From Bacteroidales bacterium (GTDB lineage: Bacteria; Bacteroidota; Bacteroidia; Bacteroidales; UBA3663), in NCBI GenBank assembly GCA_017561935.1, contig JAFZBE010000047.1, forward strand, positions 83,680 through 147,679: a stretch of DNA of 64,000 bases. The letters are read 5' to 3'. Of the stretch, positions 4,010 through 48,919 are shown piece after piece. Positions within the stretch are counted from its first letter, which is position 1. Every line of letters begins with the position of its first letter. Both the position numbers and the translations under genes were made by a program. The notes below the pieces were generated by a model. The model was not told where the DNA came from. It was given only the letters and a program-made list of their open reading frames with translations, and made no database searches.

Positions 4010-4070
4010 CCTAGATACTCTAGCTCATCTAGTAGTCTAGATAGTCTAGAGATTCTAGAAAATCTAGAAG
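4010..4070. repeat. CTAG-rich tract upstream of the radical SAM gene
   Basis: Seven CTAG tetranucleotides occur in about 60 bp, mostly as TCTAGA or TCTAG variants spaced 7-10 bp apart. They fill the 77-bp gap between the MEMO1-AMMECR1 gene and the radical SAM gene. A shorter tract of the same type precedes sufS. Confidence 0.75.
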
Positions 4071-42684: not shown

Positions 42685-43905
42685 ATGCGTAATATAGCAA
42701 TCCTCGGCAGTACGGGAAGCATTGGGCGGCAGACCTTGGAGGTTTGTGCCGAACATCCCGATCTTTTCAGCGTATATGCCATTACTGCCAATCGTTCGGC
42801 AGATTTGATTATTGAGCAGGCTCGCCAGTTCCATCCCGAGGTCGTCGTCATTGCCGACGAGACCTGTTACGACAAGGTGCGTGAGGCGCTGAGCGACTTG
42901 CCCATCAAGGTTTGGACGGGTGCTGAAAGTCTTTGTCAAGTGGTGACTGCTGGTCCTATCGATGTTGTCGTCACCGCTATGGTGGGCTTTGCTGGTCTGC
43001 GTCCAACCGTAGCCGCCATCAAGGCGCAGAAGATGTTGGCGCTTGCCAACAAGGAGACGCTTGTTGTGGCTGGTCAGTTGATCGAAGGTCTTTGTGCCGA
43101 ATACCAGGTGCCTATCCTGCCTGTCGATTCCGAGCATTCGGCCATCTTCCAGTGCCTGCAGGGCGAGAGTATTGCCCGTGGTTGCTTCCCTTGGCTCAAG
43201 AAAGACAACGAGAACGCCGAAAAGCCTCATTATCTCGACAATCCCATCGACAAGCTCATTATCACTGCTTCCGGTGGCCCGTTCCGCACCTTCACGATGG
43301 AACAGATGCGCGACGTGACGGCAGCACAGGCGCTCAAGCATCCCAATTGGGACATGGGAGCCAAGATTACCATCGACTCGGCTTCGATGATGAACAAGGG
43401 TTTCGAGGTGATCGAGGCACGCTGGCTCTTTGGTATGAACACCGATCAGATTGAGGTGGCTGTTCATCCGCAGTCCATCGTTCATTCGATGGTTCAGTTC
43501 AGCGATGGTGCCATCAAGGCGCAATTGGGCTGCCCCGATATGAAGGTGCCTATCGCCTACGCACTCAGTTATCCCGATCGCATGCCATCGCAGATCAATG
43601 GTAAACTCAAGATCGAGGATTATGCCCATCTCACCTTCGAGCGTCCCGACTTGGAACGATTCCCCAACCTGCGTCTTGCATTCGAGGCTTTGTCAACTGG
43701 CGGCGACCGCACATGTGTGCTCAATGCGGCCAACGAGGTGACAAACGAGGCTTTCCGTCGCGGTCAATGCAAGTTCCTGCAGATGGCTGAGGTCAACGAG
43801 AAGACGGTGGCTGCCATGCCTTTCGTGGCAAGTCCTTCGCTCGAAGATTATTTTGAAATCGATGCCGAAGCGCGCATCAAGGCTCGTGAGATCCTGGGTA
43901 TCTAA
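42685..43905 (+). CDS. dxr: 1-deoxy-D-xylulose 5-phosphate reductoisomerase
   Basis: 406 residues. NADPH-binding GSTGSIGRQTLEV (residues 8-20); LALANKETLVVAG; the metal-binding PVDSEHSAIFQCL motif; TASGGPFRTF; and HPNWDMGAKITIDSASMMNKG. Second enzyme of the MEP pathway, divergent from ispD. A short A/T-rich tandem repeat separates it from rseP. Confidence 0.97.
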   Translation: MRNIAILGSTGSIGRQTLEVCAEHPDLFSVYAITANRSADLIIEQARQFHPEVVVIADETCYDKVREALSDLPIKVWTGAESLCQVVTAGPIDVVVTAMVGFAGLRPTVAAIKAQKMLALANKETLVVAGQLIEGLCAEYQVPILPVDSEHSAIFQCLQGESIARGCFPWLKKDNENAEKPHYLDNPIDKLIITASGGPFRTFTMEQMRDVTAAQALKHPNWDMGAKITIDSASMMNKGFEVIEARWLFGMNTDQIEVAVHPQSIVHSMVQFSDGAIKAQLGCPDMKVPIAYALSYPDRMPSQINGKLKIEDYAHLTFERPDLERFPNLRLAFEALSTGGDRTCVLNAANEVTNEAFRRGQCKFLQMAEVNEKTVAAMPFVASPSLEDYFEIDAEARIKAREILGI

Positions 43906-43950
43906 TTGTTAATTGTTGATTATTCATTGTTAATTATTCATTGTTAATTG
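43903..43950. repeat. Short A/T-rich tandem repeat before rseP
   Basis: About three imperfect copies of a 14-15 bp unit containing ATTGTTAATT fill the gap between the dxr stop and the rseP TTG start; the start codon itself lies in the last copy. This repeat type can change length by slippage, which could alter spacing to the start codon. Confidence 0.6.
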
Positions 43951-45318: not shown

Positions 45319-46647
45319 ATGATTACTATCATATTGAAGCATAGGAAGGAGGAATCGTTGCTGAGATTTCATCCCTGGGTTTTCTCTGGTGCCATCTACA
45401 GGATGGAGGATGAGTTCGGCAACGAGATACAGCCCGAGGAAGGCGACTGGGTGCGTGTGGTCTCTTCGCAGGGTGAATTCCTCGCCTTGGGACAGTATCA
45501 GATTGGCTCAATCGCTGTTCGCATCTTCTCGTTCGATGAGAATGAGTTCGACGAAGAGTTCTTCCTGCGTCGTTTGCAGTCGGCCTACGCGTTGCGTCGG
45601 TCGCTCGGCTTGATTCGCCCCGACAACAATGCCTATCGTCTGGTGCATGGCGAGGGTGACGGACTCCCGGGACTCATCATCGATGTCTATGCTCACACGG
45701 CTGTGATGCAGGCTCATACGGCAGGCATCCACTATATACGGCAGGCGCTGGCCGAAGACTTGATTCGTGTTGCGGGAGCCGAGATTCGTAATGTCTATTA
45801 CAAGTCGGAGACGACTTTGGGCTATAAGACCGAGGCGCGACAGGAGGCTGAGGCCGAAGGAGCGTCGGTGAACGGATATCTGATTATCGATGGCAAGCCT
45901 GTCGAAGATGCCGCACAAGGCCGTGCGCTCGAACAGACCATTAGTGACGTGGCACTTGAAAACGGTTTGAAGTTCCATGTAGATTGGCTCAAGGGGCAGA
46001 AGACCGGATTCTTCGTCGATCAGCGTGAGAATCGCGCTCTTGTAGAGCGTTTCGCCCGTGGACGCAAGGTACTCAATATGTTCTGCTATACGGGAGGCTT
46101 CTCGTTCTATGCCATGCGGGGTGGTGCTGAGCTTGTGCATTCCGTCGATGTATCGAAGCAGGCCATCGGTTTCACGAATGCCAATGTGGAATTGAACTAC
46201 CCTAATGATCCGCGTCATCAGGCATACGTGGCCGATGTGTTCGATTTCCTCAAGGATCCCTCCCGCTTCATCGGGAACCACGGGGATTCTTTCTCCCCTT
46301 CCAGCAGGGAAGGGGTCGGTGGAGAGGCTTTCCCCTACGATCTCGTCATCCTCGATCCTCCAGCCTTCGCCAAGCATCGCAAGGTGCTGCACAACGCGCT
46401 TCGCGGCTATCAGAAACTCAATGCCAAGGTGCTTGAGAAGATGCCTTCGGGAAGCATCCTCTTCACTTTCTCCTGTTCGCAGGTGGTGACGAAGGAAGAC
46501 TTCCGCTGCGCAGTGTTCAGCGCAGCCGCTCAGACAGGCCGTCGCGTTCGCATCCTCTATCAGCTCCATCAGCCTGCCGACCATCCCATCAGTATCTACC
46601 ATCCCGAGGGCGAATACCTCAAGGGTCTGGTACTCTATGTTGAGTGA
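45319..46647 (+). CDS. Class I rRNA methyltransferase, RlmI-like (PUA domain)
   Basis: 442 residues. N-terminal PUA-like domain (HPWVFSGAIYRMEDEFGNEIQPEEGDWVRV); RlmI-type central domain (YRLVHGEGDGLPGLIIDVY, VYYKSE, GQKTGFFVDQRENR); SAM-binding VLNMFCYTGGFSFYAM; and the DLVILDPPAFAKH motif. RlmI methylates C1962 of 23S rRNA in E. coli; the position here is inferred. Residues about 321-338, just before the DPPAF motif, are encoded by an in-frame palindromic repeat (46290-46332) and have no counterpart in the family. Confidence 0.88.
   Translation: MITIILKHRKEESLLRFHPWVFSGAIYRMEDEFGNEIQPEEGDWVRVVSSQGEFLALGQYQIGSIAVRIFSFDENEFDEEFFLRRLQSAYALRRSLGLIRPDNNAYRLVHGEGDGLPGLIIDVYAHTAVMQAHTAGIHYIRQALAEDLIRVAGAEIRNVYYKSETTLGYKTEARQEAEAEGASVNGYLIIDGKPVEDAAQGRALEQTISDVALENGLKFHVDWLKGQKTGFFVDQRENRALVERFARGRKVLNMFCYTGGFSFYAMRGGAELVHSVDVSKQAIGFTNANVELNYPNDPRHQAYVADVFDFLKDPSRFIGNHGDSFSPSSREGVGGEAFPYDLVILDPPAFAKHRKVLHNALRGYQKLNAKVLEKMPSGSILFTFSCSQVVTKEDFRCAVFSAAAQTGRRVRILYQLHQPADHPISIYHPEGEYLKGLVLYVE
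46290..46332. repeat. In-frame palindromic repeat element (copy 2)
   Basis: CCCCTTCC (46295-46302) pairs with GGAAGGGG (46308-46315), loop AGCAG, followed by TCGGTGGAGAGGCTT. It is the same layout as the minus strand of 3408-3456. It lies inside the methyltransferase domain and adds about 16 residues without breaking the frame. Confidence 0.65.
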
Positions 46648-46670: not shown

Positions 46671-46757
46671 TTCTACGGACTTATAGGACTCAAGGGACTT
46701 TTTGCATATTATCCTTGTTCGATAAGCTTGTCCTTTAAGTCCAAAAAGTCCGTAGAA
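46671..46757. repeat. Palindromic array unit 1
   Basis: Begins TTCTACGGACTT and ends AAGTCCGTAGAA. The two 28-bp arms are imperfectly complementary and each contains a GGACT/AGTCC-type subrepeat. The tip carries CTTGTTCGATAAG. It lies just upstream of the GxxExxY gene. Confidence 0.85.
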
Positions 46758-46773
46758 ATATTAAACCACGAGT

Positions 46774-47154
46774 ATGGATAGAAATTATACATATAGGATA
46801 TTGCGTTGCGCCTACAATGTCTATGACGAACTGGGACCTGGTCTTTTGGAGAGCATCTATGAGGAAGCCTTAGTACATGAACTGCAAATACAAGGTTTTA
46901 AGGTAGAGCGTCAGGTACCTGTTCCTGTTATATATAAGGATAAAAAACTGCCAACCAGTCTTCGTCTTGACCTTATGGTTGACAATCAGGTTATTATTGA
47001 ACTGAAGTCTGTATCTGAATACCGCAAGCTATTTGAGAAACAGCTCTATACTTATTTGCGATTAACAGGGTGCGAATTGGGTTATGTTATCAATTTTAAT
47101 GAGGAAGACCTTCGCGACGGAATACATACAGTTGTGAACCCCTATGTGCAATAG
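46774..47154 (+). CDS. GxxExxY family protein (PD-(D/E)XK nuclease superfamily)
   Basis: 126 residues. The family motif GLLESIY is at G23, E26 and Y29. The nuclease core is visible as RLDLMVDNQVIIELK: D66, then E76-x-K78 in two strands, followed by Q90/Y92 in the next helix (EKQLYTYLRLTG). That is the order D...ExK...QxxxY of PD-(D/E)XK nucleases. The activity is unproven for the family. The gene is embedded in the palindrome array: unit 1 ends 16 bp before it and units 2-5 follow. It may be mobile or act on those palindromes; this is inference. Confidence 0.85.
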   Translation: MDRNYTYRILRCAYNVYDELGPGLLESIYEEALVHELQIQGFKVERQVPVPVIYKDKKLPTSLRLDLMVDNQVIIELKSVSEYRKLFEKQLYTYLRLTGCELGYVINFNEEDLRDGIHTVVNPYVQ

Positions 47155-47183
47155 TTCACCAGCCCTCTGTTAATCGTAATTTA

Positions 47184-47664
47184 TTCTACGGACTTATAGG
47201 ACTCAAGGGACTTTTTAGCAATGATTCCCAAATATGACAAGCCAGTCCTTCAAGTCCCCAAGGTCCGTAGAAAAAAGAACCCCCCAAGACGTGCATTGTA
47301 TATTCTACGGACTTTTAGGACTAAATGGACTAATTATCCCAGTTCGACAAGTCAGTCCTTTAAGTCCTTAAAGTCCGTAGAAAAAGACTATACCCAATGC
47401 ATGCGTTTTTTATTCTACGGACTTAAAGGACTATAAGGACTTTTTGCATAATTTACTTGTTCGACAAGCCAGTCCTTTAAGTCCATAAAGTCCGTAGAAT
47501 AAAAAGAATATACCCAAGGCGTGCGCTTGCATCTTCTACGGACTTATAGGACTATAGGGAATAATTATCCCAGTTCGACAAGCCAGTCCTTTAAGTCCTT
47601 AAAGTCCGTAGAAAAGAAGAAGACATCAAGCCTATTCCATTAAGTCCCCAAAATCCGTAGAATT
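47184..47664. repeat. Palindromic array units 2-5 plus a half unit
   Basis: Full units at 47184-47272, 47303-47382, 47413-47499 and 47534-47613 each start TTCTACGGACTT and end (A)AGTCCGTAGAA. A right-arm remnant lies at 47639-47662. The start-to-start period is 119, 110 and 121 bp. Spacers of about 30 bp are also partly conserved (ACCCAA, TGC). The loops carry TTCGACAAG. This fills the 544-bp gap up to folA. Since the spacers repeat too, it is not CRISPR. Confidence 0.88.
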
Positions 47665-47698: not shown

Positions 47699-48199
47699 AT
47701 GAACATCATCGTAGCAGCCTCCGAAAACAATGCCATTGGCAATCAGGGAACTATGCCATGGCATCTGTGTGCCGACCTCCAGTACTTCAAGCAGCTCACG
47801 ACTGGACACACCGTGATTATGGGTCGCAAGACTTACGAGTCCATCGGTCGTCCCTTGCCGCGTCGCCGCAATGTAGTAGTGACTCGCAGCCTTTTCCATA
47901 TCTCTGCTGAGGTGATGAGCAACCTCAAGCCTGGCACCAGCATAGAAGTTTATCATTCGCTCGCCGAGGCCATCGAGAAGTCGCCCGCCGACAGCTTCGT
48001 GATAGGAGGGGCACAGATCTACAACCAGGCTTGGAATGAAGCCGACTGCATCTATCTTACCCGCGTCCACACCGTCATCGAAGAGTTTGACTCCACCATT
48101 CCTCCCATTCCCGAAGGCTTTGTCTGCGTAAGCAGCCAGGATGTCGAGGCCGACGAAAACAACGATTTCCCCATCACCTTCGAGGTTTGGAAACGCTGA
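47699..48199 (+). CDS. folA: Dihydrofolate reductase
   Basis: 166 residues, starting MNIIVAASENNAIGNQGTMPWHLCADLQYFKQLT. A cysteine replaces the usual proline after PWHL. TVIMGRKTYESIGRPLPRRRNVVVTR is the NADPH-binding segment, and SFVIGGAQIYNQA and DFPITFEVWKR close the fold. It reduces dihydrofolate to tetrahydrofolate. The usual partner thyA is not adjacent; the upstream neighbour is the palindrome array, whose half unit ends 35 bp before the ATG. Confidence 0.96.
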   Translation: MNIIVAASENNAIGNQGTMPWHLCADLQYFKQLTTGHTVIMGRKTYESIGRPLPRRRNVVVTRSLFHISAEVMSNLKPGTSIEVYHSLAEAIEKSPADSFVIGGAQIYNQAWNEADCIYLTRVHTVIEEFDSTIPPIPEGFVCVSSQDVEADENNDFPITFEVWKR

Positions 48200-48262
48200 T
48201 TGCTCACCGATTCGTATCTTTCACACTTTATTATAAATAATTCGAGTTTCGCATTTTCATAA

Positions 48263-48411
48263 GGTCGGCCTACGGCCTCAAAATTATAAGAAAATTAATT
48301 TCAAAAATTAAAATAACTGCACGTCGCTTAGTGTCTATGAAATATTCATCTGCGTTTTTCGTATAATTTTTTGATTCTATTTTTCTATAATTTTGAGGCA
48401 GTATGCCGACC
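48263..48411. repeat. MITE-like element with about 31-bp terminal inverted repeats
   Basis: The left arm starts GGTCGGCCTACGGCCTCAAA (48263 onward) and the right arm ends TTTTGAGGCAGTATGCCGACC (48381-48411). Their roughly 31 bp are complementary with about three mismatches and enclose about 85 bp of A/T-rich non-coding DNA. No transposase is inside. Next to it, 48424-48456 holds direct AATTCG repeats of a kind frequent in this phylum. Confidence 0.65.
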
Positions 48412-48460
48412 CTAAAAATTCATGTCAATTCGCGGTAATTCGTGTTAAATTTTCCCAAAT

Positions 48461-48905
48461 AGAACGTCAACGTTCGTAGATGTTCCATTTCTGAATGAAG
48501 ATGGAGCGTCAACGTCCGTAGGCGTTCCATTCCCGAACGAAGATGGAGCGTCAACGTCCGTAGATGTTCCATTTACGAACGAAATTGGAGCGTCAGCGTC
48601 CTTAGATGTTCCATTTACGAACAAGATAGAGCGTCTACGTCCGTAGATGTTCCATTTCCGAATGAAGTTGGAGCGTCAACGTCCGCAGATGTTCCATTTA
48701 CGAACGAAGTTGGAGCGTCAACGTCCGTAGATGTTCCATTTCCGAACGAAGTTGGAGCGTCAACGTCCGTAGATGTTCCATTTCCGAACGAAGTTGGAGC
48801 GTCAACGTCCGTAGATGCTCCATTTACGAACGAAGTTGGAGCGTCAACGTCCGTAGATGCTCCATTTCCGAACGAAGTTGGAGCGTCAACGTCCGTAGGC
48901 GCTCC
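48461..48905. repeat. Tandem array of eleven 42-bp hairpin units
   Basis: Units start at 48461, 48503, 48545, 48587, 48628, 48670, 48712, 48754, 48796, 48838 and 48880. The period is 42 bp, except one 41-bp step. The first 26 nt of each unit fold: GGAGCGTC and GATGTTCC pair, then ACG with CGT around a TC tip, with one A/A mismatch. The remaining 16 nt is an unpaired linker (ATTTCCGAACGAAGTT). Changes between units mostly keep pairing (G-U to G-C, or U-A to U-G). Confidence 0.88.
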
Positions 48906-48919
48906 ATCTACGAACGAGA

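Follow-up and report, generated by a model that had tools for sequence, protein, structure and literature searches.

A predicted nuclease gene among GGACT palindromes

The window, by which we mean the whole stretch of 64,000 nucleotides analysed (G000:C65:83680-147679), comes from an assembly of 3.34 Mb that is 77% complete and that, judged by its genes, probably belongs to Bacteroidales. Between an rlmI-like gene (45319-46647) and folA (47699-48199) it contains an element in which one small gene is surrounded by palindromes:

46671-46757, no strand: palindromic unit 1, 87 bp, upstream of the gene; folding z -5.9
46774-47154, + strand: predicted GxxExxY PD-(D/E)XK nuclease gene, 126 aa; TIGR04256 (E 8.3e-41), PF13366 (E 2.3e-39), D66/E76/K78, pLDDT 94.9
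47184-47272, no strand: palindromic unit 2, 89 bp, 29 bp past the stop of the gene; folding z -2.7
47303-47382, no strand: palindromic unit 3, 80 bp; folding z -6.9
47413-47499, no strand: palindromic unit 4, 87 bp; folding z -7.1
47534-47613, no strand: palindromic unit 5, 80 bp; folding z -5.5
47636-47663, no strand: half unit, right arm only; family D3

The preliminary description of this locus had reported five palindromes of 80-89 bp and a half unit, all with GGACT subrepeats, around a GxxExxY gene; coordinates and counts confirm this layout, and the gene is intact. Unit 1 ends at 46757, 17 bp upstream of the gene start at 46774, and the four units downstream follow one another in tandem, as described, with starts 119, 110 and 121 bp apart and partly conserved spacers. 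The repeats are concentrated at this place: the window has 10 copies of TACGGACTT where 0.15 would be expected, and 9 of the 10 are within the array; for GGACTNNNNGGACT there are 18 copies where 0.04 would be expected, and 17 belong to the array.

Folded as single DNA strands, the five units give z scores of -2.7 to -7.1 relative to dinucleotide shuffles. The arm of a unit consists of three GGACT blocks with four variable bases between them (9-nt GGACT-N4 subrepeats), and the units are imperfect hairpins: the GGACT blocks pair, and the 4-nt spacers between blocks are mostly unpaired. In 18 GGACT palindromes the complementarity of spacers between arms is 51/144 against 62.5 (sd 4.9) for re-paired spacers, and so below chance in what is one modest test, devised after the data were seen. 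Since the spacers are less complementary than re-paired ones, it is the GGACT blocks, rather than a perfect stem, that seem to be retained.

The protein matches TIGR04256 over its full length (139 bits, cut-off 35) and a single Pfam family, PF13366 (PDDEXK_3; 134.8 bits, cut-off 22). To our knowledge, members of this GxxExxY family have only been described as predicted nucleases, without an assigned role. The D66...E76-x-K78 core that had been pointed out earlier is present together with the GxxExxY motif (G23, E26, Y29), and all three core residues are invariant across 62 relatives. A search of the PDB by sequence gave no significant match. The AlphaFold model is confident, and its nearest solved fold is that of Cas4 SSO0001 (Z 9.6, rmsd 3.7, 101 aligned residues, 21% identity), followed by the Holliday junction resolvase Hjc at a Z within the range of a merely common fold (7.1, 86 aligned) and a weak match to I-Bth0305I. 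From sequence and model, the protein is predicted to be a Cas4/Hjc-like PD-(D/E)XK nuclease, which differs from Cas4 and Hjc in its lack of CRISPR context and its length of only 126 aa. PADLOC gave only a marginal Cas4 match (E 0.02), which does not place the locus in a known anti-phage defence system, and no known RNA family matched near its gathering score.

The family occurs on 8 of 72,556 plasmid records, several of which carry chromosome-like operons around the gene, such as a Sphingomonas fab operon with the order fabD-GxxExxY-fabG (L349). At the sensitivity of the search, none of 50,697 phage records contains it, and no PHROG match was obtained.

GGACT palindromes accompany one clade of the gene

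We counted GGACT palindromes by pattern searches of genomes. The genome of the window (G000) holds 31 matches to the nested GGACT pattern in about a dozen places, mostly as solo palindromes free of genes. At four places (L002, L022, L026 and L035), a palindrome of another family (GGTCGCTTCGCTCAAAATC...) carries the GGACT palindrome at its tip. The same genome carries three true GxxExxY genes, each in a different setting: the window gene among GGACT palindromes, a second (L008/L088) between arrays of a 128-bp CACAGAT palindrome and a third (L007/L083) flanked by inverted repeats of other types. On contigs C36, C43, C58 and C67, several GGACT palindromes are found about 1 kb or less from a contig end, which suggests that the repeats break assemblies and are undercounted.

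The association of palindrome and gene that the preliminary description had proposed to look for in related genomes is present: GGACT palindromes are numerous in 3 of 60 genomes (31, 58 and 24 matches), and these are exactly the three that have a GxxExxY gene of the DRNYTY clade, namely those of the window, G004 (L112) and G010 (L104). The other 57 have 0-1 matches, and a reversed control pattern gives 0-4 per genome across the 60. Within the genus the exact rank p for this co-occurrence is 1/455, which is somewhat optimistic because G000 and G004 share ancestry: the gene of G004 also adjoins folA, and so is probably the same insertion as in the window, inherited by both. The gene of G010 is at a different site, with folA on contig C5 and the gene on C4. 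Most GGACT copies of G010 lie in an array around the gene, and those of G004 are spread over many contigs. A second repeat family, TCAAGAATTAGAGAA, has 33, 30 and 5 matches in the three gene holders (p 4/455) and is less clean than GGACT: G008, a genome 69% complete in which the gene was not detected, has 15 copies.

These counts bear on the possibility that the palindromes are older host repeats, invaded by a homing-type nuclease gene that cuts a recognition motif within them. Genes located inside arrays or at palindrome tips would fit such an invasion, PD-(D/E)XK homing nucleases are known, and the fold match to I-Bth0305I, weak as it is, points the same way. However, the cognate GGACT palindromes are nearly absent where the gene is absent, and the repeats therefore do not look like an independent property of the host; we consider homing improbable.

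Turnover between sister species

Comparison with a sister species (G007, whose folA is 97% identical to that of G000) reveals occupied and empty sites. A PF05635 element with arms GAGTTTGAGGGGTTTGAG / CTCAAACCCCTCAAACCC and the GxxExxY element L083 both correspond to empty sites in G007. Solo GGACT palindromes are absent there or, at L020, replaced by an ACGAATT palindrome; the alignments at L013, L002 and L026 are untidy within the gap, and all they establish is the absence of the GGACT palindrome. A MITE or DNA transposon would have terminal inverted repeats and a target-site duplication: inverted repeats are present, but no clean duplication could be read from the comparison of occupied with empty sites.

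The slot between rlmI and folA is itself variable. In G002 it is without a spacer, G007 carries another solo palindrome there, and the slots of G001, G006, G008, G011 and G012 contain periodic repeats of other kinds. A gap inferred by sequence to lie between xylA and xylB contains different GxxExxY genes with different repeats depending on the species, and another gap holds a PF05635 gene in G009 and a GxxExxY gene in G008 and G010.

Inverted flanks are a general feature of GxxExxY loci

To score the architecture at any locus, we aligned the 200 bp upstream of a gene with the reverse complement of the 200 bp downstream, and took a score of at least 20 as the threshold. The 60 GxxExxY loci of order-level relatives have a median score of 22 and 62% of them reach the threshold; for other ORFs in the same loci the median is 11 and the 99th percentile 20, with 4 of 246 reaching it. 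The strongest outlier among these controls (L087) is a gene of PF05635, a four-helix-bundle family of 23S intervening sequence (IVS) proteins, not known as a nuclease. Half of a second set of 26 GxxExxY loci, a few of which overlap with the first, also pass. The flanks of GxxExxY genes further display an excess of 8-10-nt periodicity (z about 4-6).

The structure recurs across phyla: 44 of 76 GxxExxY loci (58%) score at least 20 against 0 of 154 control ORFs, in a sample that was retrieved with a closer alignment set (A2) and is biased to the GPGLLES subfamily. Bacteroidota contribute 20 passes among 39 loci and other taxa 24 among 37, including Cyanobacteria (3/3), Chloroflexi (4/4), Planctomycetes (3/4), Desulfobacteria/Geobacter (5/6) and Nitrospirota (2/2). 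With names of taxon groups as given in the sequence records, 9 of the 14 sampled groups pass; a locus from Gemmatimonadota that scores 60 brings the number to ten. About 40% of GxxExxY loci remain below the threshold.

The repeat sequences vary from locus to locus, and what is common is the layout: arms made of nested 8-10-nt repeats, inverted around the gene. Examples are the Nostoc arms CTCACGCAAAGGCGCAAAGGCGCAAAG (L276) and, in the cultured Bacteroides finegoldii, the arms CCACAGAGGACGCAGAGGACACGGAGG around a gene that adjoins radA (L348). The radA slot of Phocaeicola, which holds an unrelated gene, did not provide a clean empty counterpart to the B. finegoldii element. The pairing of gene and palindromes is general, extending over about ten phyla, and looks like an overlooked, tiny and fast-changing genetic element, not a local oddity. 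Six of the 80 loci from across phyla (L240, L242, L248, L249, L257 and L277) have a GxxExxY gene broken by in-frame stops; such stops would fit the decay of mobile-element genes, and errors of metagenome assembly are also possible.

Flank repeats follow the protein

We compared the repeats in the flanks of pairs of GxxExxY genes with the identity of their proteins. For relatives at different sites, flank repeats are common to 85% of pairs with at least 70% protein identity, 42% of pairs at 55-70% and 0-8% of those below (permutation 0/500). Across phyla, with same-site pairs excluded, sharing rises with protein identity from 0 through 13 and 41 to 76% (permutation 0/500). In the top identity bin, same-site pairs included, the inner flanks are shared in 86% of cases against 16% for DNA 450-600 bp away in the same genomes. 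Since this more distant DNA is not shared likewise, base composition and taxonomy do not explain the covariation, which could reflect either recognition of the repeats by the protein or transmission of the two together as one unit. For PF05635, a sample of only 15 loci gave no signal of covariation between protein and repeat.

Together with the co-occurrence in relatives and the flank structure in three sets of loci, this covariation backs the link between GxxExxY genes and palindromes on which the preliminary description rested. It also bears on a more trivial account, by which repeat-rich intergenic gaps simply accommodate repeats as well as small dispensable genes, the two being functionally unrelated. 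These genomes are indeed rich in gene-free periodic intergenic repeats, three of them in the window (4011-4068, 43903-43950 and 48465-48917). Against this coincidence, ParE toxin genes of the same genomes, another small gene family, never reach the flank threshold (0/20), and controls restricted to genes with gaps on both sides do so in 2 of 75 and 0 of 26 cases; the match between motif and protein clade is far above that of DNA 450-600 bp away, and the same structure is found in Cyanobacteria, Planctomycetes, Chloroflexi and further groups. We disfavour this account and give it very little probability.

PF05635 genes and relation to known systems

GxxExxY genes are not the only ones found in this architecture: outside rRNA, 18 of 26 loci of PF05635 genes pass the flank score (L132-L161 in relatives; L143 is G000:C22:22448). 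Their arm motifs differ from those of GxxExxY loci (e.g. GAGTAGAT, GAGTTTGAGGG and AACAATGTAC). The architecture thus does not require GxxExxY, and the nuclease may not be the only driver.

In the IVS of 23S rRNA, terminal inverted repeats enclose an ORF, and mobility has been proposed (PMC4990558). The window element resembles these IVS with S23/IVP ORFs in being a stem-loop that is bounded by terminal inverted repeats and contains a small ORF, and in its patchy distribution. It differs in its nested short repeats, in a gene of PF13366, which is unrelated to PF05635, and in its location between protein genes, the rlmI-like gene and folA, and not in 23S rRNA, for which reason we do not count it as an IVS.

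The main rival to a nuclease-driven element is nonetheless an IVS-like one: a selfish intergenic hairpin, moved by machinery encoded elsewhere such as a reverse transcriptase or host recombination, in which GxxExxY and PF05635 proteins are accessories that bind, protect or process the hairpin as RNA or DNA, as proposed for the ORFs of 23S IVS. Its strongest argument is the PF05635 result, as both families are found in palindromes of one kind and can take up the same slot. The repeats and proposed mobility of IVS also favour it, as does the orientation of the genes: most are co-oriented with both neighbours in tight, operon-like gaps, in 32 of 50 and 42 of 68 cases (the fabD-GxxExxY-fabG order being one example), so that they would be transcribed. 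Weighing against it, the invariant active site of GxxExxY suggests catalysis on nucleic acid, the spacers of the GGACT arms show less complementarity than expected by chance, which a stem under selection for perfect pairing would not, and the window element is not in rRNA. On balance we regard the IVS-like hairpin as a serious and rather unlikely explanation.

The position of a nuclease gene among palindromes had suggested a likeness to REP/RAYT pairs, in which a gene product acts on hairpin repeats. In REP/REPIN-RAYT systems (REPtrons) the gene is flanked by its own palindromes, solo copies lie elsewhere in the genome and are mostly intergenic, and gene variants are repeat-specific (PMC3733652). 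The likeness holds in part: the window gene is flanked by its own palindromes and solo copies lie elsewhere in the genome, gene variants go with particular repeats, and the location is mostly intergenic. It does not hold for the protein, a predicted PD-(D/E)XK nuclease where RAYT is a Y1 HUH transposase (PF01797), or for the form of the repeat. REPs are 20-40 bp long and marked at one end by GTAG or CGTC, whereas GxxExxY palindromes are 80-130 bp with nested 8-10-nt subrepeats; the window units, 80-89 bp and symmetric, have GTAG only inside their mirrored ends, and other GxxExxY repeats are without GTAG. A RAYT acting as hidden driver was also rejected: the single Y1_Tnp of the genome is on another contig, one that lacks GGACT palindromes. 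In its protein family and in the form of its repeat the element departs from a RAYT system, and REP/RAYT serves only as an analogy. Genes accompanied by palindromes of their own are a known kind of arrangement; in the open-licence papers searched, we found none that links GxxExxY to repeats or describes these repeats in a bacterial context.

A nuclease that may drive its own palindromes

We favour the reading that the window element is one member of a widespread, sequence-diverse group of small mobile elements, in which a GxxExxY nuclease lies among palindromes of its own type and drives their spread, and we put its probability at about 0.47. Two observations support it most strongly: motif and protein covary, and genomes that lack the gene have almost no GGACT palindromes. 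The PD-(D/E)XK protein would bind the tandem motif of its own palindromes and nick or trim the hairpin or cruciform that they form, and would thereby promote, in trans, the copying and insertion of palindromes into intergenic gaps and the tips of other palindromes. It would work as RAYT does with REPINs, using a nuclease of Cas4/Hjc type.

A broader proposal can be put forward only tentatively: GxxExxY proteins may be the dedicated nucleases of a mobile-element class undescribed in the literature searched and present in about ten phyla, each recognising the 8-10-nt subrepeat of its own palindromes and driving their spread; with a sister class built on PF05635, such elements may account for a large part of the periodic hairpin repeats that lie between bacterial genes (CGCAAAGN, CACAGAG, ACGAATT, GGACT and similar). 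GxxExxY, a common family without known function, gains a concrete candidate substrate in its own flanking palindromes, and short periodic intergenic palindromes that differ even between sister species gain a candidate source. If the nuclease does drive the palindromes, it would be a second, unrelated solution to the role of RAYT with REPINs. The findings may also bear on how the IVS of 23S rRNA move, because the IVS ORF family occupies the same kind of element.

Other repeats in the window and related genomes

Downstream of folA, the window contains a solo palindrome of 155 bp (48260-48414, ends GGTCGGCCTACGGCCTCAAAATTATAAG) with no gene inside; palindromes of this family flank a different GxxExxY gene in one of the related genomes (L125, G004:C26). 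It is followed at 48465-48917 by a 42-bp tandem repeat with 10.8 copies at 90% match (GGAGCGTCAACGTCCGTAGATGTTCCATTTCCGAACGAAGTT), which overlaps a repetitive reading frame on the minus strand. The short periodic repeats at 4011-4068 (9-nt, CTAGATAAT) and 43903-43950 (7/14-nt, TAATTATTCATTGT) resemble arms seen elsewhere, and the latter immediately precedes a reading frame at 43948.

A fourth PF13366 match in the genome of the window (L010, 27 bits) covers profile positions 51-111 only and was not counted as a GxxExxY gene. Beside this gene with its partial PF13366-like match lies an 8-copy array of 42-bp palindromic units (L010 975-1436; G000:C57), possibly another pairing of repeat and gene. 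Further arrays of 36-42 bp are found near folA in G003 and G005 (L194 and L195).
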